Origin: Thiorhodospira sibirica ATCC 700588
GTDB taxonomy: Bacteria; Pseudomonadota; Gammaproteobacteria; Ectothiorhodospirales; Ectothiorhodospiraceae
Length of the DNA stretch: 41,649 nt
Assembly (NCBI RefSeq): GCF_000227725.2
Contig: NZ_MU255056.1
Span: forward strand, 817,563-859,211
Direction: 5' to 3'
The notes under the pieces were generated by a model. That model was not told where the DNA came from, searched no databases, and worked only from the letters and a program-made list of their open reading frames with translations. Numbering within the stretch: position 1 is the first letter of the stretch; the number at the start of each line of letters is the position of its first letter. A program made the translations under genes and the position numbers. Positions 1-35,830 of the stretch are shown piece after piece.

Positions 1-332
1 GTCTCGACCGAGAGATGATGACCATGGCGCTCGGCCAGCTTTTCGCAGGCCAGGGTGGGGCCAAAGTCGGTGTAGTGCGTCTTGACCAAGGCGAGCACCT
101 CCTGGCGTACTGTCTCGGCAATGGCGTTATTGGGACGTCGGCCACGGTGGCCACTGCGTAGCCCTGTCGCCCCATGCTCACGATAGCGGCGAACCAGGCG
201 CTTGACCTGGCGCACGCTCAACCCCAGGCGCTGGGCCGCCTCGGCCTGCCGCAGATGCTTGTTCGCCACCGCCTGAATCATCTCTAGTCGGTCAATTTCT
301 TTGTGACTCATCGTAATGTGCTCCTTCGTCAT
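1..332 (-). CDS. ISNCY-type transposase, N-terminal part (runs off window)
   Basis: The minus-strand frame is open from an ATG at 332 to the window edge (110 codons seen). It begins MTKEHITMSHKEIDRLEMIQ and continues with a helix-turn-helix segment containing RQAEAAQRLGLSVRQVKRL and RRYREHG, the DNA-binding N-terminus typical of ISNCY-group transposases. The start at 332 is preferred over the in-frame ATG at 311 because GGGAGGGG lies 5 bases upstream of it. The DDE catalytic part would lie beyond base 1, so intactness cannot be judged. The family call is by recognition of the N-terminus only. Confidence 0.8.
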   Translation of the reverse strand, partial: MTKEHITMSHKEIDRLEMIQAVANKHLRQAEAAQRLGLSVRQVKRLVRRYREHGATGLRSGHRGRRPNNAIAETVRQEVLALVKTHYTDFGPTLACEKLAERHGHHLSVE

Positions 333-348
333 GCGTGCCCCTCCCGCT

Positions 349-408
349 TAAATATAAAGGGGACATTTTAGAATTGGACGAAGGGGACATTACTGCTTTG
401 GGCTAACA
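349..408 (-). mobile_element. Outer end of the ISNCY-type element
   Basis: Upstream of the transposase start are two copies of GGGGACAT (359-366 and 383-390) followed by a block that reads TGTTAGCCCAAAGC on the minus strand and ends near 408. Such short repeats next to a TGT-starting end fit an IS terminus. The exact boundary is inferred; the opposite end is outside the window, so no target duplication can be seen. Confidence 0.5.
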
Positions 409-18576: not shown

Positions 18577-18659
18577 AACCACCCCGGCGCTACGCGCCAC
18601 CCCTCCTTGAAAAGCAGGGGAATCTTTTTTTATGCGGAGCCGTGGCTCCGCGCTCCCAG
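18577..18659 (+). repeat. Three-hairpin repeat, copy A
   Basis: Three consecutive stem-loops: GGCGC-TAC-GCGCC; CCCCTCCTTGAAAAGCAGGGG followed by a seven-T run (terminator-like); and GCGGAGCC-GT-GGCTCCGC, ending CGCTCCCAG. A second copy at 24287-24368 keeps the framework and changes both arms of two stems. It lies 3' of cbbO, where the middle hairpin may end transcription. Confidence 0.7.
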
Positions 18660-18802: not shown

Positions 18803-21800
18803 ATGCATATCAAGCGGCGTTTGTTGATTTCCTTGTTGTCCATCGGGGCGTTGACGGCCCTTTTATTTGCCTTGGCGGCGCATCAGAGTTTGCGTTATAG
18901 CCTGATCCAGGGTTATGACAAGCAGTTGCAGGCGGCGGCGCAGGCGATGCTTGAGTTGGTGCCGCCGGGGTATCATGCGCAGATTACGGGGCCGGATTCT
19001 GTTTCCCCGGAGAAATTTCTCACAGGAATGCACAGGCTGTCGCGCTATGCCGATCAGGCGGGTTTTGCGTATATCTATACCTATATGCTGTTTGATGGTC
19101 GGGTGGTGACAACCGCCAGTTCAGCAACGGAAAATGAGTGGGCAAAAGGAACGCATGATGTGTTTTTTCAGCATTATGATACAGCGCCGCCAGAAGTGTA
19201 TCAAAGCTTTGCCGATGGCCAGACCCGTTATCTGAAATACGGTGATCGCTATGGTGAGTTTCGCTCCATTTTTTTGCCGGTGGATCTAGAGGATGGGCGG
19301 CGTTATCTGATCGGGGTGGATATTTATCTGGAAGATCTTGAACGCGAGTTGCGCAATCTTTTTGTCCTGTCCGTGGGGATTGGGGTCAGCGTCTTTTTAT
19401 TAACCGGCTTGCCGATGTTGTGGGCGACGCGCACGATTATTCGTCCGCTGGAAATGGAGCGGCGTCTGGGGGTTATCTTTGATAGCCTGGATGCGCTGGT
19501 GTATGTCTGTGATCCGGCGAAAGGGCGCATTTTGCTGGTCAATGCTCATGCGCGGCGTTTGTTCGGGGATCGGGAGGGCCTTAGCTGTGAGTTTTGTACT
19601 CAAGGCCCTGCGATGTTGGCCTCCTTCAATGCCCCGGATGGCGGGATGCAGCAGTGGGAGATGCAAAGCCTGCACAATCAGCATTGGTATGCGTGTCGCG
19701 GGCGTTTGATTCGCTGGCACAACCAGCGCTATGTGCGCTTGTTGATTGCCACCGATACCACCCAGAAGGTGAATGAGTTGCATACCTTGGCACAGGAACG
19801 CCAGCGCCTTGAAAGCATTATTCAGGCGACCCGTGTGGGCACCTGGGAGTGGGAGATTGATAGCCACCATTTGCAGGTCAATGCGCAATGGCTGGTGATG
19901 CTCGGGCGGGCGCTGTCGGAGCAGGAATTGCTGACATTGCAGGACTGGTTGAGCTGGTTACATCCCGAGGATGCGGGCCAGTTCTACGCGCATTTGCAGC
20001 GGCATCTGCGGGGTGAGCTGGCGACATGTGACGGCGAGTTACGCATTCGCCATCAAGGCGGACATTGGCTGTGGGTTCATGTGCAAGGCGAGATTGCCCG
20101 CTGCGACGAGGCCGGCACGCCTGTGTGGATGTGTGGTACCCAGGCGGACATCAGTCTGCGTAAAACCGCTGAGGCGCTTTTGCGAGCGAGTGAGCAGCAG
20201 TTTAAAACCCTGTTTCATGATTCGCCGGTGGCGATTATGCTGCATGATGCCCACAGCGGCGAGTTGCTCAATGCCAATGCGGCCGCATATCAGGGTTATG
20301 GTTATGTCTCCTTTGAGGCTTTTTATGCGCATAAGCAATGGCTGACGACGGCGCCGTATTCTTTTGCGGATGCCTTGGCCTTAATTCACAAGGCGCATCG
20401 TGAAGGGCCGCAATGTATTGAGTGGTTGAATAAAACGCAAGACGGTCGAAAAATCTGGGAGATGGTGTATTTAAGCCCGATCCAGATTGATGGGAAGCCG
20501 ATGGTATTGGCGACCTGCATTGATATTACCGAGCGCAAGCAGGCCGAAGAGGCGCTGCGCCAGGCAACGGCTCAGGCGGAGGCACTGGCAGTCAAAGCCG
20601 AACAGGCCAATCAGGCGAAAAGCGCTTTTCTGGCCACGATCAGTCATGAAATCCGCACACCGATGAATGCCATTATCGGGATGAACTGGCTGGCCTTGCG
20701 CACCGAACTCACGTCACAGCAGCGCGAATATCTGGAGAAAATCGACAGCGCCGCCAAGAATTTGCTGGCGATCATCAATGATGTGCTGGATTTTTCCAAG
20801 ATTGAGGCCGGGCATCTTGCCCTTGAGCATATCCCCTTTGCCCTGGATGCGGTAGTGCAGGAGGTGATGGGGCAGATGCTGTGTCTGGCGGAGCAAAAAA
20901 ATCTGCCGCTACAGCAGTGCATAGACCCCGAGGCCTTGCAGGATTATTGCGGCGATCCGCTGCGCCTGCGCCAGATTTTGCTCAATTTATTGAGTAATGC
21001 GATTAAATTTACCCGCCAGGGGGAGGTGTGCCTCAGCATTGCCGTGCAGGCCCCGGCCAGTGCCGAGCGGCTGAACGTGCGCTTTGCGGTAAGTGATACC
21101 GGGATTGGGATTCCTGCGGATAAGCTGGCGCTGTTGTTTGATCCCTTTACCCAGGTGGATGCCTCGACCACACGCCAGTATGGTGGCACCGGGCTGGGTT
21201 TGAGTATTTGCCAGCGCTTGCTGGGGGCGATGGGTTCGCGCCTGGAGGTGGACAGTCAGCCGGGGCGGGGGAGCTGTTTTTCCTTTGTGTTATCGCTTGC
21301 GCGTCATGTGTCCAGCGAGGCGCCCGGCGTGGTGACCTTGGCGGATGCGGATGCGCTGGATGAGGCGAAGTTGGCCATGTTGCGCGGGGCGCAGGTGTTG
21401 CTGGTGGAGGATCAGCCGATGAATCAGCAGATTGCCTGCGGCATGCTCGCCACGCTCGGGATTGAGCCGGTGGTGGCGGAGCATGGCGTACAGGCGCTCG
21501 ATCGGGCGACACAGATGCTGGCGCAGGCAGGGCGCATTGATGCGATTCTGATGGATATTCAAATGCCGGGGATGAGTGGCTATGCGTGCTGTCAGCGGCT
21601 GCGGGCACAGGCGGACATGGCGGGGGTTCCGATTATCGCCATGACCGCCTATGCCATGAGCGAGGAGCGAAAACAATGCATTGCCGCCGGGATGAATGAT
21701 CATATCGCCAAACCGGTGGATTTTCAGCAGCTGGTGACGGTGTTGCAGCGCTGGATTAAACCGACAACAACGGATATCGCTTCAGCGGATACAGGGCAAT

Positions 21801-22228
21801 ATGCAGCGCATCCGCAAACGCCGCTTTCAGATATTCTGCCGGAAAGCTTGCCGGGCCTTGATCTGCAGGATGCAAAGCGCCGCTTTGATGGAAGGCTTGA
21901 GCGGTATTATGAGATTCTGGCTGAAACGGCCCCTGCCTGGCAGCAAAAACAGGGGCAACTGGAACAACATCTGACACAGGGTGAGTGGGCGCAGGCGCTC
22001 ACATTCAGCCACGGTATCAAGGAACTGGCGGCTAACTTAGCCGCCGCTTCACTGGCCGGTGAGGCCGCCCGCATTGAGACCCTATTGCAAGAAAATCCCC
22101 CTGATCTGGCAGAACAACTGCCTCCCCTGATCGCGGCCTATAGCACCGCGTTTACGATAGCGAATGACAGCCTGCGCACCGTGTATCTGGCGCGGATGCG
22201 GGCGGCGTGGCAACAGACAAAGCCCTAA
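18803..22228 (+). CDS. Hybrid sensor histidine kinase with PAS, receiver and HPt domains
   Basis: A 1141-residue membrane sensor. An N-terminal membrane segment (about 7-27), a periplasmic sensing region of about 160 residues (SRYADQAGFAYIYTYMLFDG) and a second membrane segment (about 188-208) are followed by PAS-like modules. HisKA carries His615 in SHEIRTPMNAIIGM. The ATPase domain has NLLSNAIKFT, DTGIGIP and GGTGLGLS. The receiver has phospho-Asp918 in LMDIQMPGMSG. The C-terminal HPt-like domain has His1070 in SHGIKELAANLA. All relay residues are present, so a full His-Asp-His phosphorelay is likely. GGAAGGG precedes ATG 18803. No response regulator with an output domain is encoded nearby, so signal and target are unknown. 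Its end overlaps the convergent hydrolase gene by 4 bases. Confidence 0.92.
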   Translation: MHIKRRLLISLLSIGALTALLFALAAHQSLRYSLIQGYDKQLQAAAQAMLELVPPGYHAQITGPDSVSPEKFLTGMHRLSRYADQAGFAYIYTYMLFDGRVVTTASSATENEWAKGTHDVFFQHYDTAPPEVYQSFADGQTRYLKYGDRYGEFRSIFLPVDLEDGRRYLIGVDIYLEDLERELRNLFVLSVGIGVSVFLLTGLPMLWATRTIIRPLEMERRLGVIFDSLDALVYVCDPAKGRILLVNAHARRLFGDREGLSCEFCTQGPAMLASFNAPDGGMQQWEMQSLHNQHWYACRGRLIRWHNQRYVRLLIATDTTQKVNELHTLAQERQRLESIIQATRVGTWEWEIDSHHLQVNAQWLVMLGRALSEQELLTLQDWLSWLHPEDAGQFYAHLQRHLRGELATCDGELRIRHQGGHWLWVHVQGEIARCDEAGTPVWMCGTQADISLRKTAEALLRASEQQFKTLFHDSPVAIMLHDAHSGELLNANAAAYQGYGYVSFEAFYAHKQWLTTAPYSFADALALIHKAHREGPQCIEWLNKTQDGRKIWEMVYLSPIQIDGKPMVLATCIDITERKQAEEALRQATAQAEALAVKAEQANQAKSAFLATISHEIRTPMNAIIGMNWLALRTELTSQQREYLEKIDSAAKNLLAIINDVLDFSKIEAGHLALEHIPFALDAVVQEVMGQMLCLAEQKNLPLQQCIDPEALQDYCGDPLRLRQILLNLLSNAIKFTRQGEVCLSIAVQAPASAERLNVRFAVSDTGIGIPADKLALLFDPFTQVDASTTRQYGGTGLGLSICQRLLGAMGSRLEVDSQPGRGSCFSFVLSLARHVSSEAPGVVTLADADALDEAKLAMLRGAQVLLVEDQPMNQQIACGMLATLGIEPVVAEHGVQALDRATQMLAQAGRIDAILMDIQMPGMSGYACCQRLRAQADMAGVPIIAMTAYAMSEERKQCIAAGMNDHIAKPVDFQQLVTVLQRWIKPTTTDIASADTGQYAAHPQTPLSDILPESLPGLDLQDAKRRFDGRLERYYEILAETAPAWQQKQGQLEQHLTQGEWAQALTFSHGIKELAANLAAASLAGEAARIETLLQENPPDLAEQLPPLIAAYSTAFTIANDSLRTVYLARMRAAWQQTKP

Positions 22229-23229
22229 AAGTCGAGCGTTAAAAACAGATGCAGTATCGCCAGTACGGCGTCGGTGGTACGGGGTGAGAGGGCATCACCC
22301 GCCAGCAGGTGATTGCCGGGGTCGTCGCTTTGGGCCACGGCAAACAGGGCTTTGGGCGTGGCGCCCAGGCGCATGAAGGTGGTTTCGCTGGCGCGGGCGG
22401 CAACCACTTGATCCTGTGGATGATAGAGCATCAGGGTGGGAATGCGCAGGGTCTCCAGCGGTGCTTGACGCACCGCCTTGACGGCCGCGCCCATCGGCAG
22501 TAGCGCAGTACTGGGAAAGCGGGTGGTCCAGTCGCGGGCATGGGCGGCGTTGTAGGGCGTGAAGTAATAGTCCGGCCCGGTGATCCAGGGGACGAAATGA
22601 TAGGCCCAGGGCCAGGTGAGCATCTGCGCCCGGGGGTCTTTGGCCGCAAAATTGGGGGAGAGCAGGAGCAGTGCCTGAAGGTCTTTGGGCGAATGCGTGG
22701 CCGCGTAGAGGGTGGCCAGCGTGGCACCGGTGGAGTTGGCAAGCACAACAACCCGTTCGCCCAGCCGCTGGCCGATGCTGATGGCCTCGTGTACATCCTG
22801 CATCCAGTGGCTGAGTTGTGCCTCAGCCATCGCCGCACCGCTGCGTCCGTGGCCGGTGAGGCGTGCCAGATAAAGATTGGCGCCGAGGTCTTGGGCCAGC
22901 CGTTGGGGCAGTGGATACAGCTCCCGGTGACTGGCGCTAAACCCATGCAGATAGACCAAAGCGACAGGGGTTACCGCAGGGCTGGCTGGCTCGGCCCAGA
23001 CGATGGTTTTGGCCAAGTCTGGGCGGAGATCGGTCAACGCGGCCTCCTGCTGTGCCAGATAGACCTCAAGATCATCAGGCAGGGCCAGCGGCTGGATATT
23101 CCAGGAGATATCCACCCGTGGCCCGGCAAAAAATCCCGCCACCAGCAGCAACACGACAAGCAGCGCGCTCGCGCTAATGATGCGTCTTTGGCGGCCTTGC
23201 CGCAGCGCTTTATCGCGTGGTTTTGGCAT
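22225..23229 (-). CDS. Membrane-anchored alpha/beta hydrolase
   Basis: A 334-residue protein. The basic N-terminus is followed by one membrane segment (about 17-35, SASALLVVLLLVAGFFAGP), probably an anchor that leaves the enzyme outside the cytoplasm. Hydrolase motifs are VALVYLHGFSASHRELYPLP (oxyanion HG), ARLTGHGRSG, the nucleophile elbow in VLANSTGATLATL (Ser in NSTGA, a departure from GxSxG), the acid in LMLYHPQDQVV and His in DDPGNHLL. The substrate cannot be told; lysophospholipase or esterase types have a similar layout. It converges on the histidine kinase gene with a 4-base overlap of the tails. The upstream neighbour is the tailed pRiA4b protein, in the same orientation. Confidence 0.85.
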   Translation of the reverse strand: MPKPRDKALRQGRQRRIISASALLVVLLLVAGFFAGPRVDISWNIQPLALPDDLEVYLAQQEAALTDLRPDLAKTIVWAEPASPAVTPVALVYLHGFSASHRELYPLPQRLAQDLGANLYLARLTGHGRSGAAMAEAQLSHWMQDVHEAISIGQRLGERVVVLANSTGATLATLYAATHSPKDLQALLLLSPNFAAKDPRAQMLTWPWAYHFVPWITGPDYYFTPYNAAHARDWTTRFPSTALLPMGAAVKAVRQAPLETLRIPTLMLYHPQDQVVAARASETTFMRLGATPKALFAVAQSDDPGNHLLAGDALSPRTTDAVLAILHLFLTLDF

Positions 23230-23273
23230 CGCGCAAGACCTTGTATTGCTGTGGTTGTTGTAAAAAAGCGCGT

Positions 23274-24224
23274 TTAGTCGTCCGCAGCAAAACGGGCGCT
23301 CAGTTCGGTGTTGACCAGGGCGATTTCTTCTGCGCCAAAACGCTGCTGATCCAGGTTCATTTTACCATAATATTCCATCATTTCAGCGTGTTCCGGGTGA
23401 TCTTTGTCGGCCAGAGCCGCCAGGACCTCGTAATAGCCCCAAACGCCGCCGATGTCTTCGGGTGGGCAGGCGCCTTCGCCTTCCAGACAGCTTGGCGCGG
23501 CGAGGGCGGTATTTGGGGGCAGGATTTTTTCAAGCCGAATTTCATGTTCCCAGCTATCGCCAAAGTCATATTCATAGACGATATATTCCTTGGGGTTTTG
23601 TAAGACCTGCTCAAGCCGGAAGCCGGTTTCATCCAGATTGGTTTCGTCTTCATCGCCCATCATGCTCAGATCGGTGATGAGGTAAGTCTCATCCGGGAAA
23701 ACCCCCAGATGGTTATGCGCCGGACGGTAGGCGTGCAGGTGGCTGAATTCCCAGCCCATGACCGTCTGAATGATTTCATGCAGTTGCCCCAGATGGATAT
23801 CGCTTTTGACCTGCACCCGCCGCCAGATTGCAGGATCAGTGTCTAGCAAGGTGATCTTGAGCTGATAGACGCTGCTGCTTTCCTCGGTGCGAAGGGCGCT
23901 GGCCGGGCGCTTGGCCGCGACCGCCCCAGCCACGGCGGCACCGGTAGCCGCAGCGGTGGTACGCGCTGTACGTTTGGCCGGGGTCGCTTTTGCTGCCGGT
24001 TTGGTGAGGTCTTTAATGGCCTGGCTGGCGGTTTTGGTAGCTTTTTTCGCGACCGTTTTAGCGGCGGTTTTAGCCAGTTGACGGGCGCCAGAGCTGGCGG
24101 TTTTGGCCGCTTTAGCGGGCTTGGCTGCGGCAGCGCTGGCAGGGGCTTTAGTCGCAGCCTTGCTGGCAGGGGCTTTGGCAGCGGGCTTGCTGGTGCTGCT
24201 CGGGGTGGTTTTTTTCGTGGGCAT
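23274..24224 (-). CDS. pRiA4b ORF-3 domain protein with Lys/Ala/Pro-rich histone-H1-like tail
   Basis: A 316-residue protein in two parts. Residues 1 to about 110 are low-complexity and strongly basic (KPAAKAPASKAATKAPASAA, AKTAAKTVAKKATKTASQAI), like histone-H1-like or AlgP-type tails that bind nucleic acid. Residues about 118-305 form the pRiA4b ORF-3 domain: VYQLKITLLDTDPAIWRRVQ, LHEIIQTVMGWEFSHLHAYR, YDFGDSWEHEIRLEKILP and PPEDIGGVWGYYEVLAAL, with the family's acidic and aromatic residues intact. AAGGAGA precedes ATG 24224. The biochemical role of this domain is unknown. Domain plus tail suggests a DNA- or RNA-associated protein. The tail is made of Ala/Lys-rich repeats and may vary in length between strains. 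Confidence 0.85.
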   Translation of the reverse strand: MPTKKTTPSSTSKPAAKAPASKAATKAPASAAAAKPAKAAKTASSGARQLAKTAAKTVAKKATKTASQAIKDLTKPAAKATPAKRTARTTAAATGAAVAGAVAAKRPASALRTEESSSVYQLKITLLDTDPAIWRRVQVKSDIHLGQLHEIIQTVMGWEFSHLHAYRPAHNHLGVFPDETYLITDLSMMGDEDETNLDETGFRLEQVLQNPKEYIVYEYDFGDSWEHEIRLEKILPPNTALAAPSCLEGEGACPPEDIGGVWGYYEVLAALADKDHPEHAEMMEYYGKMNLDQQRFGAEEIALVNTELSARFAADD

Positions 24225-24286
24225 GGGTTTCTCCTTAATAGTTATATATATTGCGTCTGGTTAATGATGGCTTTAGGCGGCTTATA

Positions 24287-24368
24287 AATCACCCCACCGC
24301 TACGCGGCCCCCCTCCTTGAAAAGGAGGGGAGTCTTTTTTATGCGTAGCTGGTGCTACGCGTTCCCAG
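24287..24368 (+). repeat. Three-hairpin repeat, copy B
   Basis: Same layout as copy A at 18577: CCGC-TAC-GCGG; CCCCTCCTTGAAAAGGAGGGG followed by a six-T run; GCGTAGC-TGGT-GCTACGC, ending GTTCCCAG. It lies between two minus-strand genes and overlaps the last codons of the transglutaminase gene (stop at 24355). Relative to copy A, stems 1 and 3 differ on both arms while staying paired. Confidence 0.7.
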
Positions 24369-27300
24369 GGGCACGGCGCAGATCCAGGGTGTAGGGATAT
24401 TCGGCATCCGGGTGCTCCGTGGGCGGTGCCATCGGGCCGATGGCGCTGCCCTGCGGGAAAAACTGCGCGATGGTGCGCAATTGTGGCGGCGGTTGCAAGG
24501 TGCCGGGGGTGTGGCCGTAATCCCAAAAGCGGTTGATGCGGCGCGCCTCGGCTTCATAGGCATTGACCGGGAAGGTGTCGTAATGCCGCCCGCCGGGATG
24601 GGAGACATGGTAGGTGCAGCCACCGATGGCGCAGCCGTTCCAGGTGTCGATCAGGTCAAAGACCAGCGGCGAATGGCGGCCAATGGTGGGATGCAGACCC
24701 GAGGGGGGCTGCCAGGCGCGATAGCGGACTCCGGCGATATATTCGCCGTGGGTGCCGGTATGGCGCAGCGGTACCCGCCGCCCGTTACACACCAGCACAT
24801 AGCGGCTATCCGTCAGGCCGCTGACCTTTACCTGCAGGCGTTCTACCGAGGAGTCCACATAGCGGGCCGTGCCTGCCTGAGTGACTTCTTCGCCGAGCAC
24901 ATGCCAGGGCTCAATGGCCATAGACAGGGCGATGTTGATGTCGCCGATCTGCACCTGTCCGTAGTGGGGGAAGCGAAACTCAAAGAAAGGTGCCAGCCAG
25001 TCCATGCTGAAGGGATAGCCGGCCTGATTGAGGTGATTCACTACGTCACGCAGATCGCTTTTGACGAAATGTTCCAGCATGAAGCGGTCATGTAGGGCGG
25101 TTCCCCAACGCACCAGGGGTTTGCGGTAGGGTGTTTGCCAGAAACAGGCCACCAGGGCGCGCAGCAACAGCATCTGCACCAAAGACATGCGGGCATGGGG
25201 CGGCATTTCAAAGGCGCGCAGTTCGACCAGCCCCAGGCGCCCGTGGGCACTGTCGGGGGAATAGAGCTTGTCAATGCAGAACTCGGCGCGGTGGGTGTTG
25301 CCGGTGAGATCTACCAGAAAGTGGCGCAGCAGTCGATCTACCAGCCAGGGTTGGGCTACCTCGCCGCTGGGCAGATGTTGCAGGGCAATCTCCAGTTCAT
25401 AGAGATTTTCATGGCGCGCCTCATCCACCCGTGGGGCCTGACTGGTGGGGCCGATGAACAGACCGGAGAACAGGTAGGATAAGCCGGGGTGATGCTGCCA
25501 GAAGCTCAGCAACGAGGCCAGCAGATCCGGACGGCGCAGGATCGGGCTGTCTGTAGGCGTGGGGCCGCCCAGGGTGATATGGTTGCCGCCGCCCGTGCCG
25601 GTGTGACGCCCGTCGAGCATGAATTTTTCGGTGCCCAGGCGGCTCAGATGGGCCTCTTCATACAAAGCCAGGGTGTTATCGCGCAGGCTGTGCCAGTCAC
25701 CCGCCGGGTGGATATTGACCTCAATCACGCCCGGATCGGGGGTGACCATCAGCCGCTCAATGCGGTTATCCGGCGGCGGGGCATAGCCTTCGAGTACGAT
25801 CGGCAAGGCCAGTTGAGCGGCGCTGGCCTCAATCGCGGCAATCAGTTGCAGGTAGGGTTCCAGCAGCTCCAGCGGCGGCAGAAACACATGCACGCGCCCA
25901 TGGCGTGCCTCGACGCACAGCGCGGTATGTGGCACCTGCTCACCGCAGCGTACCTCGGCGACTTCGGCGCTTGGCGCATGACTCGGTGGCTCAAGCAGCA
26001 GGCTGTAGCGGCGCGTCACCTCGCCATAATAATCGCCCAGGGGCGGCTGTGGCTCAAACAGGCTGGGGCCTTTGGGCTGATCCCGCGCCCGTTCATCCAC
26101 CCACGGCAGGGAATCCAGCGGCAGGCGCAGGCCCAGCGGGGAATCCCCCGGCAGCAAAAACAGATGCGGACGGCGCAACGGCCAGCGCTGACTGCAAAAA
26201 CGCTGGCTGTGCAGGTTCCAGGACAGGGGCAACACATAGCCCGCCGGGGCACCCAGATCCTCACTGAGCAGGCGCGCCAGGCGCTGGCGTTCGGCGGGGT
26301 GTGTGAGATCGGCCTGCAAGGGGTCGATATTGAGCGGCTGGGTACTTTCTTTCCAGAGATAATAAACAGTGTCTTCATAGGCTGGATGAATCAGCTGCGC
26401 ATTGAGCTGCAGATGGCGGATCAATACCTGCATCAATTGCAACGCCTGTTCGCGCCCATGCCCATAGTCATGACTGAAATCGGCCAGCAATGCTGGGTTT
26501 TGCCACACGGCCTGACCGTCTTTGCGCCAGAAACAGCCCAGTTGCCAGCGCGGTAGCGGTTCGCCGGGATACCACTTGCCCTGACCAAAATGCAGCATCC
26601 CGCCCGGCCCGAAGCGTTTGAGCAGGCGGCGCACCAGGGCATAGGCCAGGCTGCGCTTGTGGGTACCGTCAGCGTGGGTGTTCCATTCCGCGCCATCCAT
26701 GTCATCAATCGACACAAAGGTGGGTTCGCCCCCCATGGTCAGGCGCACATCCCCCTGTTTGAGCTGCTGATCCACATAGCCCCCCAGCGCATCAATCGCC
26801 GCCCATTGATCATCGCGGTAGGGCTTGGTGACACGCGGGTCTTCGTGAATGCGGCGAATTTCGTTGTGGTGGTGAAATTCCACCTCACAGGCATCGGTAT
26901 AGCCGGTGACCGGCGCCGCACTCAAGGGATCGGGGGTACAGGCCAGCGGAATATGTCCCTCGCCGGCAAATAAACCCGAAGTGGGGTCCAGCCCGACCCA
27001 GCCCGCGCCCGGCACAAACACCTCCGCCCAGGCATGCAGGTCGGTAAAATCGTGTTCCGGCCCGGATGGCCCATCCAGGGATTTGATGTCTGCGGTCAGT
27101 TGCACCAGATAGCCCGAGACAAAGCGTGCGGCCAAGCCCAGATGCCGCAACAGCTGCACCAGCAGCCATGCTGAATCGCGACAGGAGCCCGATTGCAGCC
27201 CCAGGGTTTTTTCACAGCTTTGCACCCCCGGCTCCATACGCACGGTATAGCGAATATCGCGCCACAGTACCTGATTGAGTTCTACCAGGAAATTGACGAT

Positions 27301-27720
27301 GTGACGCGGGCTGCGGTCGATCTGGGCAAGATAATTTTGCAGCCGGGGGCCGCGCTCGGCGATTTCCAGATAGGGAATCAGCTCCTTGGCAAGCAGGCTG
27401 TCATACCCAAAGGGATAGTGCTCGGCGTAGCTTTCCACAAAAAAATCAAAGGGATTGATGACCGTGAGCTCAGCGAGCACCTCCACATCAATCGCTAAGC
27501 GCTGCATCTTGTCTGGAAACACCACCCGCGCCAGAAAATTACCAAAGGGGTCTTGCTGCCAGTTGATAAAATGTTCTGTAGGGCTGATGTTGAGGCTGTA
27601 GCCCAGGATTTTGGTGCGGGTATGCGCCGCCGGACGCAGCCGGATGACATGCGGCGAGACATTGATCAGGCGATCAAAGCGGTAATGGGTTTGATGGGTC
27701 AGGGCAATGCGTATGGCCAT
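24355..27720 (-). CDS. Large transglutaminase-like / DUF2126 protein
   Basis: A 1121-residue protein. Residues about 1-80 are the bacterial transglutaminase N-terminal beta domain (IALTHQTHYRFDRLINVSPH). Then comes a papain-like transglutaminase core with the triad Cys180 (SGSCRDSAWLLVQ), His229 (DLHAWAEVFV) and Asp245 (VGLDPTSGLF). From about residue 300 onward is the DUF2126 region (DVRLTMGGEPTFVSIDDMDG, GNHITLGGPTPTDSP). Such proteins accompany circularly permuted ATP-grasp and Alpha-E proteins and may act as peptidase or transpeptidase on the product of that set; the reaction is not known. The ATG lies 2 bases after the Alpha-E stop, so the genes are translationally linked. Its final codons run into repeat copy B. 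Confidence 0.9.
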   Translation of the reverse strand: MAIRIALTHQTHYRFDRLINVSPHVIRLRPAAHTRTKILGYSLNISPTEHFINWQQDPFGNFLARVVFPDKMQRLAIDVEVLAELTVINPFDFFVESYAEHYPFGYDSLLAKELIPYLEIAERGPRLQNYLAQIDRSPRHIVNFLVELNQVLWRDIRYTVRMEPGVQSCEKTLGLQSGSCRDSAWLLVQLLRHLGLAARFVSGYLVQLTADIKSLDGPSGPEHDFTDLHAWAEVFVPGAGWVGLDPTSGLFAGEGHIPLACTPDPLSAAPVTGYTDACEVEFHHHNEIRRIHEDPRVTKPYRDDQWAAIDALGGYVDQQLKQGDVRLTMGGEPTFVSIDDMDGAEWNTHADGTHKRSLAYALVRRLLKRFGPGGMLHFGQGKWYPGEPLPRWQLGCFWRKDGQAVWQNPALLADFSHDYGHGREQALQLMQVLIRHLQLNAQLIHPAYEDTVYYLWKESTQPLNIDPLQADLTHPAERQRLARLLSEDLGAPAGYVLPLSWNLHSQRFCSQRWPLRRPHLFLLPGDSPLGLRLPLDSLPWVDERARDQPKGPSLFEPQPPLGDYYGEVTRRYSLLLEPPSHAPSAEVAEVRCGEQVPHTALCVEARHGRVHVFLPPLELLEPYLQLIAAIEASAAQLALPIVLEGYAPPPDNRIERLMVTPDPGVIEVNIHPAGDWHSLRDNTLALYEEAHLSRLGTEKFMLDGRHTGTGGGNHITLGGPTPTDSPILRRPDLLASLLSFWQHHPGLSYLFSGLFIGPTSQAPRVDEARHENLYELEIALQHLPSGEVAQPWLVDRLLRHFLVDLTGNTHRAEFCIDKLYSPDSAHGRLGLVELRAFEMPPHARMSLVQMLLLRALVACFWQTPYRKPLVRWGTALHDRFMLEHFVKSDLRDVVNHLNQAGYPFSMDWLAPFFEFRFPHYGQVQIGDINIALSMAIEPWHVLGEEVTQAGTARYVDSSVERLQVKVSGLTDSRYVLVCNGRRVPLRHTGTHGEYIAGVRYRAWQPPSGLHPTIGRHSPLVFDLIDTWNGCAIGGCTYHVSHPGGRHYDTFPVNAYEAEARRINRFWDYGHTPGTLQPPPQLRTIAQFFPQGSAIGPMAPPTEHPDAEYPYTLDLRRAPGNA

Positions 27721-27722
27721 AA

Positions 27723-28664
27723 TCAGTCGGCTCGTTCAAGTTTAAACCAGGTGTCGGCGATGTAGCCGTGAATCTCGGCCATTTCTTTTTGCAGCTCGTC
27801 GATGAAGCGGTGCAGGGTTTCGGCATCCATCAGCTCACTGATCTCAGCCCCAAGGACATGGCGCTTGACCTGCAAGCTAAAGCGTAGCGGTACCTCGTTG
27901 CGCGGCAGATTCGACAGGGCGGTTTCCACCTCGGTCAGGGCGTGGGCCACGGCGCGGGGGAAATGCAGATTCTGCAACAGATAATGCACCACCTCGGCCC
28001 CACTGACGCGGCGGCGCACATGCTGGCGGTACATCTGAAAGGCACTGAGTGATTTGAGGATATTGATCCATAACAGCCCCTCAAAGGGCTTGGGCGTATT
28101 GGAGGTGTGCGTGAGCAGGCCGATGGCACCGACATCAAGGATGCGGCTGGTCATATCGGCGCGTTCCAGATTGCGCCCGGTGCGCACGAAATCATAGGCA
28201 TGATCATGGCTCATGGTCCCGGCCAGCAGGCCGGTGATTTGCTGGCAGCGGCCCACGACCTCATTGAGATAGGCGTAGCGCCCGCGCTTGCTCAAGCCGC
28301 TATCAAGGTTTTCCTTGGCAAACAGATACAGCTCATTGACGCTTTCCCAGCCCTGTGCCGGCACCAGATCGCGGGTGGTGCGCACATTTTCCCGCGCCAG
28401 CGCCAAGGTGTTGATGATCGAGCCGGAATGCTCCTGATCGGCCAATAAAAAGCGTACACAACTGCGCTCATCGTCTTTGTTGTAGCGCTCATCAAACAGC
28501 GCATCACTGCCGGTGATGGTCAACATCCGTCGCCAGGACAGGCCCACATGACGCGGCATATCCAGGGCCAGATGGGAAAAGGCCATGACCATGCGCGCCG
28601 TATTCTCACTGCGCTCTATATAGCGGGCCATCCAGTACAGCCGCTCTGCGACACGCGATAACAT
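27723..28664 (-). CDS. Alpha-E domain protein (DUF403)
   Basis: A 313-residue, mostly helical protein starting MLSRVAERLYWMARYIERSE, the hallmark of the Alpha-E family, with later SVNELYLFAKENLDSGLSKR and FVRTGRNLERADMTSRILDV. The ATG at 28664 is chosen over the TTG at 28688 because it begins the conserved domain and follows GGAGG at about 9 bases; it then lies 5 bases from the ATP-grasp stop. The family always travels with the circularly permuted ATP-grasp and transglutaminase partners and is thought to assist the ligase, but no activity is assigned. Middle gene of the three-gene unit. Confidence 0.9.
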   Translation of the reverse strand: MLSRVAERLYWMARYIERSENTARMVMAFSHLALDMPRHVGLSWRRMLTITGSDALFDERYNKDDERSCVRFLLADQEHSGSIINTLALARENVRTTRDLVPAQGWESVNELYLFAKENLDSGLSKRGRYAYLNEVVGRCQQITGLLAGTMSHDHAYDFVRTGRNLERADMTSRILDVGAIGLLTHTSNTPKPFEGLLWINILKSLSAFQMYRQHVRRRVSGAEVVHYLLQNLHFPRAVAHALTEVETALSNLPRNEVPLRFSLQVKRHVLGAEISELMDAETLHRFIDELQKEMAEIHGYIADTWFKLERAD

Positions 28665-28668
28665 TCGC

Positions 28669-30117
28669 TCAGGCCTCCGTATCCACAATCCAGGTATCTT
28701 TACTGCCTCCCCCTTGCGAGGAATTGACCACCAGCGATCCTTTGCGCAAGGCCACCCGCGTCAGTCCGCCGGCGGTGACATCCGTGCTCACCCCCTGCAG
28801 GATGAACGGGCGCAAATCCAGATGCCGGGGCTCCAGGCGGCCATCACACAAGGTGGGCGCGGTGGAGAGCGATAACACCGGCTGGGCAATGTAGTTGCGC
28901 GGGTCGTGCTTGATCAGCTCGGCAAATTCATGGCGTTGGCGCTTGCTGGCCTGCGGGCCGATCATCATGCCATAGCCGCCGGATTCATTGGCCGGTTTAA
29001 CCACTAGCTCCTCCAGATGCGCCAGCACATAATCACGCTGGCTTTCATCCATGCACAGATAGGTGGGCACATTGGGAATGATCGGCTCCTGATCCAGATA
29101 ATATTTAATGATCTGCGGCACAAAGGCATACACCACCTTATCATCCGCCACCCCGGCGCCGGGAGCATTGGCCAGCGCCACATTGCCCTTGCGCCAGGCG
29201 CGCATGATGCCGGGCACGCCCAGCAGCGAATCCTTATGAAAGACTTCCTGATCCAAAAACAGATCGTCAATGCGCCGATAAACCACATCCACCCGCTCCA
29301 GCCCCTTGATGGTGCGCATATACACGCAATCATCCTCACCGACCATCAGATCCGCCCCCTCCACCAACTCCGCGCCCATATTCTGCGCCAGATAGGCATG
29401 TTCAAAATAGGCCGAGTTATAAATGCCGGGGGTCAACACCACCACGGCGGGGTAATCCAGCGGGCGCGGCGAGAGTGAGGCGAGCATATCAAAAAGCTGC
29501 GAACTGTATTCATCCACCGGCAAAATGCTGTAATTTTCAAACAACTCCGGGAAAACGCGCTTGGTCACCTGACGATTTTCCAGCATATACGACACCCCGG
29601 AGGGCACCCGCAGGTTGTCTTCAAGCACATAGATTTTGCCGTCTTTATCGCGCACCAGATCCGAGCCGCAGATATGCGCCCAGATGCCATGCACCGGGCT
29701 AAAGCCTTGGCATTGCGGGCGAAAATTCTTCGACTGGGCCAGCACTTCCTTGGGAAACACGCCATCCTTGACGATCTGCTGACGGTTATACAGATCATCA
29801 ATGAAGTGATTGAGCGCAGTCAGGCGCTGCTTGAGGCCCTCTTCAATGCGCATCCACTCCTTGCGGGCAATAATTCGCGGGATCACATCAAAAGGCCAGG
29901 CCCGGTCGATATTTCCGCCCTCGGTGTAGACCGTAAAGGTAATCCCCATCTCCACAATCGCATGTTCTGCCGCCAGCTTGCGCTCCTGAATCGCCTCAGC
30001 GCCGAGCGAACGCAGATAGGAGGTCAAGGTACGCGCCACCGCACGCGGATAACCGGGAGTGCTGATCAATTCATCATAAAAGCCATTGGGGTCGTAGCTT
30101 TTCCAGTCAATGCTCAT
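28669..30117 (-). CDS. Circularly permuted ATP-grasp protein (DUF404/DUF407)
   Basis: A 482-residue protein from ATG 30117 (MSIDWKSYDPNGFYDELIST). This start has GGAGAG 4 bases upstream, whereas the longer frame would need TTG 30204. Conserved elements include ENLRVPSGVSYMLENRQ, VVLTPGIYNSAYFEHAYLA, GVADDKVVYAFVPQIIKYYL, VVKPANESGGYGMMIGP and IAQPVLSLSTAPT, the permuted ATP-grasp nucleotide and metal sites. The family is predicted to ligate amino acids or peptides with ATP (an amidoligase-like role); the product is unknown. It is the first gene of the ATP-grasp/Alpha-E/transglutaminase unit and follows mlaD by 90 bases, possibly on the same transcript. Confidence 0.9.
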   Translation of the reverse strand: MSIDWKSYDPNGFYDELISTPGYPRAVARTLTSYLRSLGAEAIQERKLAAEHAIVEMGITFTVYTEGGNIDRAWPFDVIPRIIARKEWMRIEEGLKQRLTALNHFIDDLYNRQQIVKDGVFPKEVLAQSKNFRPQCQGFSPVHGIWAHICGSDLVRDKDGKIYVLEDNLRVPSGVSYMLENRQVTKRVFPELFENYSILPVDEYSSQLFDMLASLSPRPLDYPAVVVLTPGIYNSAYFEHAYLAQNMGAELVEGADLMVGEDDCVYMRTIKGLERVDVVYRRIDDLFLDQEVFHKDSLLGVPGIMRAWRKGNVALANAPGAGVADDKVVYAFVPQIIKYYLDQEPIIPNVPTYLCMDESQRDYVLAHLEELVVKPANESGGYGMMIGPQASKRQRHEFAELIKHDPRNYIAQPVLSLSTAPTLCDGRLEPRHLDLRPFILQGVSTDVTAGGLTRVALRKGSLVVNSSQGGGSKDTWIVDTEA

Positions 30118-30207
30118 CAGTCTCTCCGCGACAGACCCCGCACCGTAGCGGTCGGGGAAGATGCGCGGTTGCGCCGTGGCAACCGCTGCGTTTAGGGGTA
30201 TCAATGC

Positions 30208-30669
30208 TTAGGGCGCGGTCATGTTCACCAGAACCCGCCCGATGAGTTCTTCGAGCACGACAGCCGATTGGGTGAACAAAATCTCGTCACCGTCGCGCAG
30301 GGCGTCTTCTTCACCGCCCACGCCCAGGGCGATGTATTGTTCACCGAGCAGCCCGGCGGTGTAAATGCTGGCCTGGGTGTCGGTGGGCAGATAGTCATAT
30401 TGGGTGGAGATGGTCATCACCACTCGCGCCTGAAAGCGGTTGGGATCGTAATAAATCTCGCTGACGCGCCCGATGCGTACCCCGGAGACGGTCACGGGGG
30501 CGCGCACTTTCAGTCCGCCGATATTGCTGAAATAGGCGCTCACCTGATAGCTGTCGGTCTGGCGGTATTCATGCAAATTACTGACCTGCAGGGCCAGTAC
30601 CAACAGGGCAGCGATGCCAATGGCCACAAACAGGCCCACTCCGATTTCGATACTGCGTGTTGTCATCAT
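30208..30669 (-). CDS. mlaD: Lipid-asymmetry transporter substrate-binding protein MlaD
   Basis: A 153-residue MCE-domain protein. One N-terminal membrane anchor (IEIGVGLFVAIGIAALLVLA) is followed by a single MCE domain (YQVSAYFSNIGGLKVRAPVT, VSGVRIGRVSEIYYD, YTAGLLGEQYIALGVGG). It forms the periplasmic ring of the MlaFED complex that moves phospholipid between the membranes. ATG 30669 follows AGGA; TTG 30672 and ATG 30666 are adjacent alternatives. It is the third gene of mlaF-mlaE-mlaD. mlaC and mlaB, which usually follow, are absent here; the ATP-grasp gene takes their place. Confidence 0.93.
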   Translation of the reverse strand: MMTTRSIEIGVGLFVAIGIAALLVLALQVSNLHEYRQTDSYQVSAYFSNIGGLKVRAPVTVSGVRIGRVSEIYYDPNRFQARVVMTISTQYDYLPTDTQASIYTAGLLGEQYIALGVGGEEDALRDGDEILFTQSAVVLEELIGRVLVNMTAP

Positions 30670-30689
30670 CAAATCCTAAATAATCTGGC

Positions 30690-31469
30690 TTAGGCGCTAA
30701 ACATCAGGCCGGTAAGAATGAAATCCAGGGCCAGTACAGCCAGCGCGGTGTACACCACGGTATTGGTGGTGGCGCGACTGATGCCCTCGGAGGTTGGGGT
30801 GGCGTCATAGCCCTGGAATACGGCAATCCAGCTGGCGACAAAGCCAAAGACGATGCTCTTGATAATGCCGCTGAGTACATCGTCATAAAAATCCACGCTG
30901 GCTTGCATCTGTGACCAATACGAACCGCCATCCACGCCCAAAAGCCCCACGCCAATAAAATAGCCGCCCCACACCCCCACGGCGCTGAAGGCTGCTGCGA
31001 GCAGGGGCATGGCCAGAATACCGGCGAGAAAACGCGGCGCAATCACCCGTTTATACGGATCAACCGCCATCATCTCCATGCTGGAGAGCTGCTCGGTGGT
31101 TTTCATCAGGCCGATTTCAGCGGCCAGCGCCGAGCCAGCGCGTCCGGCAAACAACAAGGCAGTCACCACCGGCCCCAGTTCGCGCACCAATGACAGCGCC
31201 ACCACACTGCCAAGGACCTCCTCGGCACCGAAGTTCACTAGGGTGATATAGCCCTGATAGCCCAGCACCATCCCCACAAACAGCCCCGATACCAGGATGA
31301 TCAGCAGGGATAACACGCCGACCGAATACAGTTCACGGATCAGCAGGCGTGGACGCCAAGTCAGTGAACCCAGCGACCACAGGGTACGCAATAAAAACAG
31401 GTGGGCACGTCCCAGGCTTTGGAAGACCGATAGCCCGAAATGGCCCAGACGTTGCAAAAGAGAGACCAT
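30690..31469 (-). CDS. mlaE: Lipid-asymmetry ABC transporter permease MlaE
   Basis: A 259-residue inner-membrane permease. Family signatures are LSLLIILVSGLFVGMVLGYQ, ALSLVRELGPVVTALLFAGR, AGSALAAEIGLMKTTEQLSS and MEMMAVDPYKRVIAPRF, with several membrane segments up to the C-terminus (ALAVLALDFILTGLMFSA). Length is normal. Its ATG directly abuts the mlaF stop (TAG 31472-31470, ATG 31469), so translation is coupled. It pairs with MlaF (ATPase) and MlaD (periplasmic ring). Confidence 0.95.
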   Translation of the reverse strand: MVSLLQRLGHFGLSVFQSLGRAHLFLLRTLWSLGSLTWRPRLLIRELYSVGVLSLLIILVSGLFVGMVLGYQGYITLVNFGAEEVLGSVVALSLVRELGPVVTALLFAGRAGSALAAEIGLMKTTEQLSSMEMMAVDPYKRVIAPRFLAGILAMPLLAAAFSAVGVWGGYFIGVGLLGVDGGSYWSQMQASVDFYDDVLSGIIKSIVFGFVASWIAVFQGYDATPTSEGISRATTNTVVYTALAVLALDFILTGLMFSA

Positions 31470-32291
31470 CTAGGATTTTCCTGTATTGATCAGGTCATCA
31501 AGGTAATCGGGGGCGGGGTAATGGTACGGCACCGGCCCATCTGGCAGACCTTCCATGAACTGACGCGCCCAGGCCGAGCTTCCGTGGCGTACCGCCTCCG
31601 GCGTACCGCTGTCGATAATCTTTCCTTCCGAAATCAGGTAAATATAATCGGCAATGGAGCTGACCTCCGGAACATCATGAGACACCAGGATACTGCTTAG
31701 GCCCAGCGCATCATTGAGCCTGCGCACCAGTGAGACAATCACTCCCATGGTGATCGGATCGAGCCCGGCAAAGGGTTCATCGTAGAGAATCATCATCGGG
31801 TCCAGGGCGATGGCTCGCGCCAAGGCCACCCGTCGCGCCATGCCGCCGGACAGTTCGCTGGGCATCAGATCCCGCGCCCCGCGCAGTCCTACCGCCTCCA
31901 GCTTGAGCAATACCAGGGTGCGAATCAGGCGCTCTGGCAGACGGGTGTGCTCACGCAGCGGAAAGGCGACATTTTCAAACACATTCAGATGGGTAAACAA
32001 GGCGCCGCTTTGAAACAGCATCCCCATGCGTTTGCGCAGGCGATACAGTTCACTGCGCGCCAGACGATGCACCTCGTGCCCATCGACCACGATCCGCCCC
32101 CGATCCGGGCGCAGCTGGCCACCTATCAAACGCAGCAGCGTGGTTTTTCCGGTACCGCTAGGCCCCATCACAGCGGTGATTTTACCGCGTGGAATCTGTA
32201 GGCTGATACCCTCAAAAATTGTATGTGTACCGCGCCGGAAATGCAGATCTTCAATCTCAATCAGCGGCGCTGTCGATCGCTCAGTTGTCAT
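31470..32291 (-). CDS. mlaF: Lipid-asymmetry ABC transporter ATPase MlaF
   Basis: A 273-residue ABC ATPase powering MlaFED. Walker A is GPSGTGKTT, the Q-loop is in GMLFQSGALFTHLNVFENVA, the signature is ELSGGMARRVALARA, Walker B is MMILYDEPFAGLDP and the switch His is in ILVSHDVPEVSSIAD. ATG 32291 is preferred over GTG 32294 because GGAGAG lies 4 bases before it. It is the first gene of the minus-strand mla run, with a REP-like repeat between it and argD, so the promoter may lie in or beyond that repeat. Confidence 0.95.
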   Translation of the reverse strand: MTTERSTAPLIEIEDLHFRRGTHTIFEGISLQIPRGKITAVMGPSGTGKTTLLRLIGGQLRPDRGRIVVDGHEVHRLARSELYRLRKRMGMLFQSGALFTHLNVFENVAFPLREHTRLPERLIRTLVLLKLEAVGLRGARDLMPSELSGGMARRVALARAIALDPMMILYDEPFAGLDPITMGVIVSLVRRLNDALGLSSILVSHDVPEVSSIADYIYLISEGKIIDSGTPEAVRHGSSAWARQFMEGLPDGPVPYHYPAPDYLDDLINTGKS

Positions 32292-32317
32292 CACTCTCTC
32301 CGGCAGACACCGTATAG

Positions 32318-32468
32318 GGAACGCCGCTCAGCCAGAGCGGCATAACATGGATCGCCGAGTTCTACTCGGCCAGTCGGGACACTGGCTCTCATCAGGTAAT
32401 GGTTTAAAACCAGCCGAGTGCAACTCGGCGCTCCCAGGCATGGAACGTCGCTCACAAGAGCGGCATAA
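32318..32468. repeat. REP-like palindrome pair (BIME-type)
   Basis: Two palindromes of the 10.9-kb family, GCCGAGTTCTACTCGGC (32354-32370) and GCCGAGTGCAACTCGGC (32413-32429), flanked by a second type of inverted repeat (GCCGCTCAGCCAGAGCGGC near 32325 and CGCTCACAAGAGCG near 32450) and by repeated CGGCATAA. It fills the argD-mlaF gap; no gene is present. Confidence 0.75.
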
Positions 32469-32496
32469 ACATCAGCCAAGCGGGGGCGGGGCCGCT

Positions 32497-33681
<1,185 letters not shown>

Positions 33682-33832
33682 ACACTCACCGTCCTGCACA
33701 AAAATAAGGTTCACACCTGTCGCGGTATAAGTACGCACAGGCATCAAAGCGAGACAGTATAGCGCGCCTGCGGCGGCGCACAAAAGCAAGCACGATCACC
33801 GGCGGCAATGTGGCGGATTCGCTGTTGCGGAT

Positions 33833-35830
33833 TTAGCGGGTGAGCTGGGGGCGCCAGTGGTGCTGGATTTCATCGCGCACACCGGCAGCTTGTTCAAATT
33901 CCAGATTGCGGGCGTGTTGGTACATTTTTTCTTCCAGGCGGGCGATTTCTTTGAGGATGTGTTCCGGACTAAGCGCGCTAGCAGGGTTGTTGGTCTGGGT
34001 GGCGCTGGTTTTGCGGGCGGTGGCGGTGCTGTGTGCACCTTCCATGATGTCGTTGATGGGGCGAGAGACGCTGCGCGGGGTGATGCCGTGTTGGGCGTTG
34101 AATTGCAGTTGTTTGCGGCGGCGACGTTCGGTTTCTTCCAGGGCGCGGCGCATGGAATCGGTGAGTCGGTCGGCGTAAAGAATCGCCGTGCCGTGCAGAT
34201 GGCGGGCGGCGCGGCCAATGGTCTGGATCAGGGAGCGTTCCGAGCGCAAAAAACCCTCCTTGTCGGCATCAAAGATGGCCACCAGGGACACCTCCGGCAG
34301 GTCCAGCCCTTCGCGCAGCAGGTTGATCCCGACCAGCACGTCAAACACCCCCAGACGCAAATCGCGGATAATCTCGACCCGTTCCACGGTATCGATATCG
34401 GAATGCAGATAGCGCACCCGCACGCCGTGCTCCTGTAGATAATCAGTGAGATCCTCGGCCATGCGTTTGGTGAGGGTGGTGATCAACACCCGTTCGTTGC
34501 GGCGGGCCCGCTGGTTGATTTCGCTCAACACATCTTCAACCTGCAGCGCGACCGGGCGCACCTCCACGGCGGGATCAACCAGCCCGGTGGGACGCACCAC
34601 CTGCTCCACCACTTGCCCGGCCTGGGCCAGCTCATAGGGCCCTGGTGTGGCGGAAACGTGGATGATCTGCGGGGCCAGGGCCTCAAATTCACTAAATTGC
34701 AAGGGCCGGTTATCCAAGGCACAGGGCAGACGGAAGCCGTATGCCACCAGGGTTTCCTTGCGTGAACGGTCGCCGCGATACATGCCGCCAAGCTGTGGCA
34801 CGGTGACATGACTTTCGTCGATGATCAGCAGCGCATTGGCAGGCAGGTAGTCCAGAAAACACGGTGGCGGCTGACCGGGCGCGCGGCCGGAGAGATAGCG
34901 CGAATAGTTTTCAATGCCAGAGCAATAGCCCATTTCCAGCAGCATCTCAATATCAAACTGGGTGCGCTCTTGCAGGCGTTGCGCCTCGATGAGCTTGTTG
35001 GCGGCATAGAGCTGTTCCAGGCGCTCACGCAGCTCATCTTTGATCTGCTCAATCGCGGCTAAGATGGTTTCACGCGGGGTGACGTAGTGCGTCTTGGGAT
35101 AGATGGTCAGTCGCGGCACACGCCGCTCAATATTCCCCGTCAAGGGATCAAACCAGGCCAGTTGTTCGATTTCATCATCAAATAATTCAATCCGAACCGC
35201 CTTGGCCTCCGATTCTGCCGGGTAGATGTCGATCACCTCGCCGCGCACCCGGTAGGTGCCCCGGCGCAGTTCCATATCGTTGCGGGTGTATTGCAGCTCG
35301 GCCAGGCGGCGCAGGATCTGGCGCTGGCCGATCCGCTCGCCGCGTTGCAGATGCAAAATCATCTGCATATAGGCGCGGGGATCTCCCAGACCATAAATGG
35401 CCGAGACGCTGGCGACAATGATGGCATCTTCGCGCTCCAGCAAGGCCCGCGTGGCTGACAGGCGCATTTGCTCAATGTGTTCGTTGATGGAGGCGTCTTT
35501 TTCGATGTAGGTGTCCGAGGAGGGAACATAAGCCTCGGGCTGATAGTAATCGTAATACGAGACAAAATATTCCACCGCATTGTCGGGAAAAAAGCCTTTC
35601 ATCTCCTCATACAACTGGGCCGCCAGGGTTTTGTTGGGCGCCAGAATCAGGGCAGGACGGCGCACGCGCTCAATCACATTGGCAATGGTAAAGGTCTTGC
35701 CCGAACCGGTGACACCGAGCAAGACCTGATGCGCCAGACCCGCCTCAAGACCGCTGATCAAGGCTTCAATGGCTTTGGGTTGATCACCGGCGGGGCTATA
35801 GCCGGTTTTTAGCATAAATTCCTGGGTCAT
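33833..35830 (-). CDS. uvrB: Excinuclease ABC subunit B
   Basis: A 665-residue nucleotide-excision-repair helicase-like ATPase that verifies DNA damage handed over by UvrA and recruits UvrC. Walker A is GVTGSGKT (residues 39-46); the damage-probing beta-hairpin region reads [20 protein letters not shown]. Further helicase motifs are [42 protein letters not shown] and [20 protein letters not shown]. The C-terminal UVR domain is [20 protein letters not shown]. Length and all motifs are normal. It diverges from the aminotransferase at 35948. No clear LexA-type box was found in the shared 117-base region. Confidence 0.97.

Follow-up and report, generated by a model that had tools for sequence, protein, structure and literature searches.

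A PRiA4_ORF3 protein of Thiorhodospira sibirica with a histone-H1-like N-terminal tail and a predicted fold resembling SNAPC3

The Gene and Its Surroundings

The stretch of Thiorhodospira sibirica DNA analyzed here, 41,649 nucleotides long and called the window throughout, encodes on its minus strand a protein in which a basic N-terminal tail precedes a domain of the PF07929 (PRiA4_ORF3, or pRiA4b ORF-3) family (Table 1). The reading frame of 316 amino acids lies exactly where the original prediction had placed it, and the domain is intact as described there because positions 2-170 of the 173-position profile are covered (E 5.6e-61; 205.7 bits against a gathering cut-off of 26.6). This is the single PF07929 match in the T. 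sibirica genome, and the gene is chromosomal. The ATG start is well supported by the AAGGAG upstream of it and by third-position GC, which differs little between the tail (0.64) and the domain (0.62). Within the tail, codon 98 (GTG) is the sole alternative start, and no ribosome-binding site is visible 5′ of it.

Table 1. Features of the PRiA4_ORF3 gene, its product, and the adjoining gene in window coordinates
Feature	Position	Strand	Basis
CDS, 316 aa: basic N-terminal tail and PF07929 domain	23274..24224	-	ORF and Pfam profile
Residues 1-115, Lys/Ala/Thr/Pro-rich tail, net +21, mostly predicted disordered	23880..24224	-	Composition and AF2
Residues 44-73, predicted helix within the tail	24006..24095	-	AF2, ten-residue pLDDT means 54-77
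Residues 119-297, PRiA4_ORF3 domain (PF07929), acidic, beta-grasp-like	23334..23870	-	Pfam, predicted model
AAGGAG ribosome-binding site, 6 nt 5′ of the ATG	24231..24236	-	Sequence
Alpha/beta hydrolase gene, 44 nt downstream, same strand	22225..23229	-	ORF and Pfam

The tail holds 40 Ala, 19 Lys, 17 Thr, 9 Pro, 9 Ser, 5 Arg, and 3 acidic residues (computed pI 11.6), and it is followed by a part of opposite character, residues 116-316 having a net charge of -25 and a pI of 4.4. About 110 residues of Lys/Ala/Pro/Thr repeats had been predicted ahead of the domain. The length and make-up hold, but the repeats do not: KPAA occurs twice in the 115 residues, tandem repetition reaches at best 2.2 copies of a 27-base unit, and the tail is a matter of composition rather than of a repeat array. 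Its description as a histone-H1-like tail fused to the domain was right, given the net positive charge, the richness in Lys and Ala, and the predicted disorder. In the AF2 model of the protein, which was built on a 45-row alignment and has a mean pLDDT of 73.6, most of the domain lies above 90 with a weak loop at about residues 171-200, and the tail falls below 50 at residues 1-43 and 76-103. The predicted tail helix has a helical moment of 0.30 that 6.6% of shuffles reach, so it is not clearly amphipathic. Thirteen of the 23 spacings between successive Lys or Arg residues of the tail are 3-5 residues, which we take to be similar to the spacing in polyanion-binding tails.

The downstream alpha/beta hydrolase gene may be co-transcribed with the PRiA4_ORF3 gene. 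Directly upstream, at 24355-30204, is a cluster encoding a Transglutaminase-DUF2126 protein, an Alpha-E protein, and a circularly permuted ATP-grasp protein. An old operon with this cluster was considered and rejected: DUF2126 occurs in 11 and PF07929 in 6 of the 47 genomes of the order, both are found only in G000 and G012, and in G012 they lie at least 38 kb apart even for a circular contig. With this co-occurrence so rare and the hydrolase giving one weak match (2.2e-4) besides itself in the 47 genomes, the neighborhood is not conserved in the order. A palindrome, CCCCTCCTTGAAAAGGAGGGG, lies at 24310-24330, and a copy with one mismatch is found at 18600-18620; 0.01 matches to the pattern are expected in the window. 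The pattern has 12 exact matches in twenty sampled 20-kb stretches, with the window's own copy included, and is a putative dispersed REP-like repeat or terminator.

How Rare the Tail Is

A composition test (a 100-residue segment with net charge of at least +15, at least 12 Lys, and at least 20 Ala) was applied to the window and twenty 20-kb stretches of the same genome, which together make 441,649 bases or about one-eighth of the genome; one stretch lies wholly within the window, so that 20,000 bases were counted twice. Among the 1323 stop-to-stop frames of at least 100 aa in this sampled part, only the window protein passes. A whole-genome search with the tail for a paralogue or source returned the tail itself and three matches with E > 0.05 and at least four stops each, in a search whose HMMER composition correction may hide other low-complexity tails.

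Within the family, a tail was scored when 60 residues ahead of the domain contained at least 8 Lys and at least 15 Ala. The fetched loci, 64 of them on viral contigs, yielded 108 and 30 distinct family proteins when each ORF was extended to its first possible start codon; 115 of these 138 had a domain span of at least 150 and a closed 3′ end and were kept. Two of them (L114 and L157) are one protein with the start residue written differently, which leaves 114 distinct. A Lys/Ala-rich N-terminal tail is present in 1 of the 115 proteins with a near-complete domain, that of the window, in counts that cover the fetched loci only and come from searches whose genome sets overlap in part. Since the other 114 rows hold no counterpart, the tail is no family trait. 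In a tree of 91 domains, the window row groups with L039 and L009 (support 99/82) inside an eight-row clade (98/88), and in the ORFs of the other seven rows of this clade the domain is preceded by 3 to 22 residues. These tree neighbors are without the tail, so within this sample it arose on the branch of the window protein. With a length of 0.86 this branch is a long one, the tree program cautions that the position of long rows is uncertain, and closer relatives of the protein than those sampled may exist; a search of the genus returned the window's own genome alone. The original prediction is thus contradicted, by the absence of the tail from relatives that it had itself named as refuting, if the fusion is read as a property of the family. 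As it stands, the fusion has been seen in one species only.

Several candidate tails were rejected. A protein search that matched 20 of 192 genomes gave tail-like matches in G001, G186, and G086, where the alignments run through stops. In G001, the aligned upstream stretch is another frame of a WYL regulator gene; in G086, it overlies a neighboring gene; and in G186, the alignment crosses four stops and the family ORF begins 3 residues before the domain. The same search matched G135 and G163 with E values of 2.7e-4 and 4.6e-4. Long N-terminal stretches appear in a number of other family ORFs (L079, L135, L129, L086, L081, L073, L146, L205, L207, and L218 among them), and many look like artefacts of taking the earliest start; those that were counted fail the tail test.

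The PF07929 Family and Its Genomic Company

PF07929 is present in archaea and bacteria, and among relatives its distribution is patchy. In genome sets that overlap in part, it was found in 6 of 47 for the order, 34 of 369 for the class, 28 of 398 for the phylum, and 31 of 399 for another order of the same class. It is also present in 2744 of 72,556 plasmid records and 4 of 50,697 phage records. A scan of viral contigs with an alignment of the family (A1) gave 64 PF07929 loci, and the same scan with the window protein alone gave no relative; a scan of genome contigs gave two distant loci. The domains are acidic: net charge is negative in 89 of 91 distinct domains and -10 or lower in 82, with a median of -15, and the domain of the window protein alone, at -22, is the third lowest of the 91 (with ties). 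The last 20 or fewer residues carry a net charge of at least +5 in 18 of 106 family proteins, and in 11 of the 106 the C-terminal end has the opposite sign, with a net charge of -2 or lower. Three proteins (L092, L093, and L097, the first two near-copies) end in RGRPKK or RGRPRK, which we take to be AT-hook-like. Three other loci (L013:541-2031, L038:532-2013, and L052:505-1863) encode a C-terminal part of 323-332 residues with GRNDPCPC[GD]SGKKYKKCC at or near the end, presumably a motif of the SEC-C type, and these extensions appear to form a separate fusion class. A literature search by title and abstract opening found no functional study of PF07929, and a search by title found no paper on the MM3350/2I1S protein.

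Some, not all, carriers of PF07929 are transposon passengers. In plasmid pCAR1.3 and in Pseudomonas phage Marin, the family gene lies directly 3′ of an annotated IS66 transposase. In mycobacteriophage LouisV14, it is annotated as a TnpR resolvase and adjoins a TnpA gene, an arrangement that we presume to resemble IS1096. A survey of Mutator-related transposases describes a pRiA4-like ORF common to 12 elements of the ISAzba1 group (PMC3942029). A Pseudanabaena plasmid carrier has no annotated transposase within 6 kb, and none was found near the window copy among the ten proteins scanned from 18803 to 35830. Two members of a 34-row tree clade of viral contigs, L094 and L138, have a phage major capsid protein E gene no more than 350 nt from the family gene and on the other strand (L094:4993-6012 and L138:4869-5870); these phage head regions suggest a moron-like placement.

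A second kind of company is a WYL-type regulator. Of 37 genomes with a near-complete domain, 8 have one in the fetched flank, which reaches about 1.5 kb at most. One more case (G311) lies beside a split domain, and none of the 21 later-set genomes with a near-complete domain has one. The total is 8 of 58, by a search that detects only relatives of the L011 WYL protein in flanks that in part end at contig ends. In G001, the regulator is encoded 67 nt upstream of the family gene on the same strand and has Pfam WYL, WCX, and HTH domains; the other calls rest on similarity to this Pfam-confirmed protein, and in G086 the WYL frame is split in two pieces. The loci with a WYL gene near PF07929 are L011 (588-2166), L010, L008, L013, L036, L038, L047, L051, and L006, the last of which also has nearby a frame that by eye is a putative Cas3-like helicase. 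No frame of at least 60 aa in the window matches the L011 WYL protein at E ≤ 1, and the sole WYL match in the window's genome is on contig C2. No literature pairing the WYL domain with pRiA4 was found.

Predicted Fold and Likeness to SNAPC3

After 2i1s, the crystal structure of the family (Z 22.2), the window model is ranked closest to chains of entries for human SNAPc, with Z scores of 8.1, 7.9, 7.4, and 6.5, and then to the ubiquitin-fold domain of SUMO E1 at 5.3. The best of these chains, 7zwc_b, aligns over 131 residues at Z 8.1, and the best SNAPc chain in Foldseek has an E value of 6.3e-3, a probability of 1.00, and a TM-score, by query, of 0.26. The model of L091, a relative without the tail (mean pLDDT 88.9), gives the same order at higher scores: 2i1s at 23.9, chains of the same five kinds of SNAPc-containing entry at 10.5, 10.2, 10.2, 9.6, and 8.3, and the next folds at 6.3 or lower. 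Its best SNAPc chain, 7zx8_b, aligns over 129 residues at Z 10.5, and in Foldseek the values are E 4.6e-3, probability 1.00, and query TM-score 0.43. Both rankings were taken among the roughly 1000 chains that Foldseek placed highest, and the two models are not independent because most alignment rows are common to both. Identity in the best SNAPc rows is 11-14%. From residue numbering and the published structures, we infer that the matched chains are SNAPC3/SNAP50, the outputs leaving the subunit unnamed. The aligner's own note cautions that top Z scores of 7 to 8 are often seen; the values here, 8 to 10 and 1 to 4 above the next fold, are better than that and short of proof. Most folds ranked under the SNAPc chains are ubiquitin-like protein binders.

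The likeness is one of fold. The SNAPC3 profile (PF12251) matched 0 of 16 A1 members at E ≤ 10 and gave nothing above cut-off in 20 genomes, and the A1 profile matched only 2i1s among PDB sequences at E ≤ 10, in searches whose filters drop weak matches. No literature joining the SNAPC3 and pRiA4b/PRiA4_ORF3 families was found. Against viral models, Foldseek gave no match to the window model at E ≤ 0.001; the best was an uncharacterized protein of Barrevirus, a giant virus (BFVD A0A3G4ZQD0; E 7.9e-3, probability 1.00), which may be a viral SNAPC3-like protein.

As described in two SNAPc papers, the central domain of SNAPC3 is ubiquitin-like and the subunit touches promoter DNA jointly with SNAPC4 (PMC9758055), and it is a poor DNA binder alone (PMC9652321, PMC9758055). 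The same papers give its zinc ligands as C221, H313, C317, and H319 (PMC9758055) and place Motif B of SNAP50 at I191-K194 and the DNA-reading Motif C at L349 and W350 (PMC9652321).

Proposed Role and Its Alternatives

The original prediction drew from the fusion that the domain acts on or near DNA or RNA. That argument is weak, with the tail in the window protein only and the domain acidic, but the idea has other support from the transposon context, the basic C-termini, the WYL regulators of some genomes, and the SNAPC3-like fold, and the likeness to SNAPC3 is a better lead than the fusion. We propose that the protein is a PRiA4_ORF3 member with a lineage-gained H1-like tail of 115 residues that makes it a beta-grasp adaptor tethered to DNA, a reading to which we give nearly, though not quite, an even chance. 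The disordered lysine tail would bind DNA without sequence preference and so keep the acidic domain, a beta-grasp, on the nucleoid to serve as a protein-binding or DNA-adjacent adaptor. Contact with DNA would thus come from add-ons: the H1-like tail here, a basic C-terminus elsewhere, and perhaps a WYL partner or transposase elsewhere again. The tail is the likelier polyanion binder because the domain is acidic, and with 89 of 91 family domains acidic a grip on DNA by a broad basic surface of the domain seems unlikely. The tail's composition, its supported start and predicted disorder, the lack of a second such protein in the sampled part of the genome, the transposon context, the basic ends, the WYL flanks, the SNAPc fold matches, and the AlgP and PhaF tails count for the tether. 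Counting against it are the missing transposase and WYL gene at the window copy, the later set without WYL, the poor DNA binding of SNAPC3 alone, and the protein binders among the lower-ranked folds. Additionally, a tail found in 1 of 115 proteins offers no conservation that would show selection on it.

Also against the tether, the charges of the tail and of the rest of the protein almost offset each other, which would let the tail fold back onto the domain that it precedes. A low-complexity expansion whose task is to mask or space a domain of unusual acidity, and not to bind nucleic acid, would fit these charges (+21 against -25 for the rest) as well as the lack of a counterpart in relatives. 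We consider this unlikely though worth keeping in view: two relatives, L117 (-26) and L042 (-25), match or exceed this acidity without such a tail, and the spacing of basic residues looks like that of a polyanion binder. A different polyanion is the subject of another alternative, in which the tail would attach to polyphosphate or anchor a storage granule at the nucleoid, with cargo bound by the domain at the other end. The closest functional precedents found are AlgP, which acts on polyphosphate granules, and PhaF, which acts on those of PHA, as presented in PMC9239181, where bacterial Lys/Ala/Pro tails serve granule positioning as well as DNA binding. The 25 perfect KPAA repeats that this source gives for AlgP stand against two in the window tail, and none of the ten neighboring proteins scanned is a recognized granule protein by Pfam name; we consider such a tether improbable.

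Returning to DNA, the domain itself might make the contact as the ubiquitin-like domain of SNAPC3 does, with the tail merely adding affinity. The SNAPc-chain matches of both predicted models are in line with this. From the end points of the alignment (L091 25..151 against 7zwc_b 176..349), the conserved CPPED motif (C152-P154 of L091) would fall next to Motif C of SNAP50, and if the alignment is roughly extrapolated with no gaps, the conserved PxxWR loop would come close to Motif B. Gaps must, however, exist between the end points; the domain is acidic, and the profile searches gave no sequence link to SNAPC3. Direct contact by the domain is a rather unlikely account.

Beyond the tether, the fold matches allow a wider reading, namely that the PRiA4_ORF3 domain and the ubiquitin-like core of SNAPC3 are related, the former being the prokaryotic version carried by transposons and phages. 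One DNA-adjacent adaptor fold would then serve both in a promoter factor for eukaryotic snRNA genes and in an accessory protein of bacterial mobile elements, and the H1-like tail, the presumed AT-hook-like ends, and the WYL partners of some genomes would be alternative routes to DNA. We offer this as a possibility that is more doubtful than the tether itself. Shared fold with SNAPC3 is not shared function, and if the match is common beta-grasp likeness only, what is left is a known domain with a tail particular to this lineage. PF07929 is a widespread family (archaea, bacteria, plasmids, transposons, and phages) that is poorly understood, and its natural fusion to a tail of polyanion-binding type provides a protein whose localization is easily testable.

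Comparison with Known Systems

The closest known protein is MM3350 of Methanosarcina mazei (2i1s), the sole PDB sequence match at E ≤ 0.01 (E 9.2e-31). The predicted window model has the same family fold (Z 22.2, rmsd 2.0, 178 aligned), and the conserved WRR, MGW, HLH, YDFGDxWxH, and CPPEDxGG motifs are common to the window protein and the 2i1s family. In contrast, 2i1s is without the basic tail of 115 residues, and the match starts at residue 7 of its chain. With SNAPC3/SNAP50 of human SNAPc, both predicted models have the ubiquitin-like core fold in common, yet the profile searches, whose filters drop weak matches, gave no match at the sequence level and both TM-scores are below 0.5; according to PMC9652321 and PMC9758055, SNAPC3 also carries zinc fingers and works with partners that bind DNA. 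The Pseudomonas proteins AlgP and PhaF resemble the window protein in having a Lys/Ala/Pro-rich, disordered basic tail on a folded domain, and DNA binding by these tails is either reported or supposed in PMC9239181. In that account, their tails are C-terminal whereas that of the window protein is N-terminal, the AlgP repeats lie in a region of 154 aa whereas the window tail has no exact array, and the folded part of AlgP is predicted to be helical whereas that of the window protein is a PF07929 domain.
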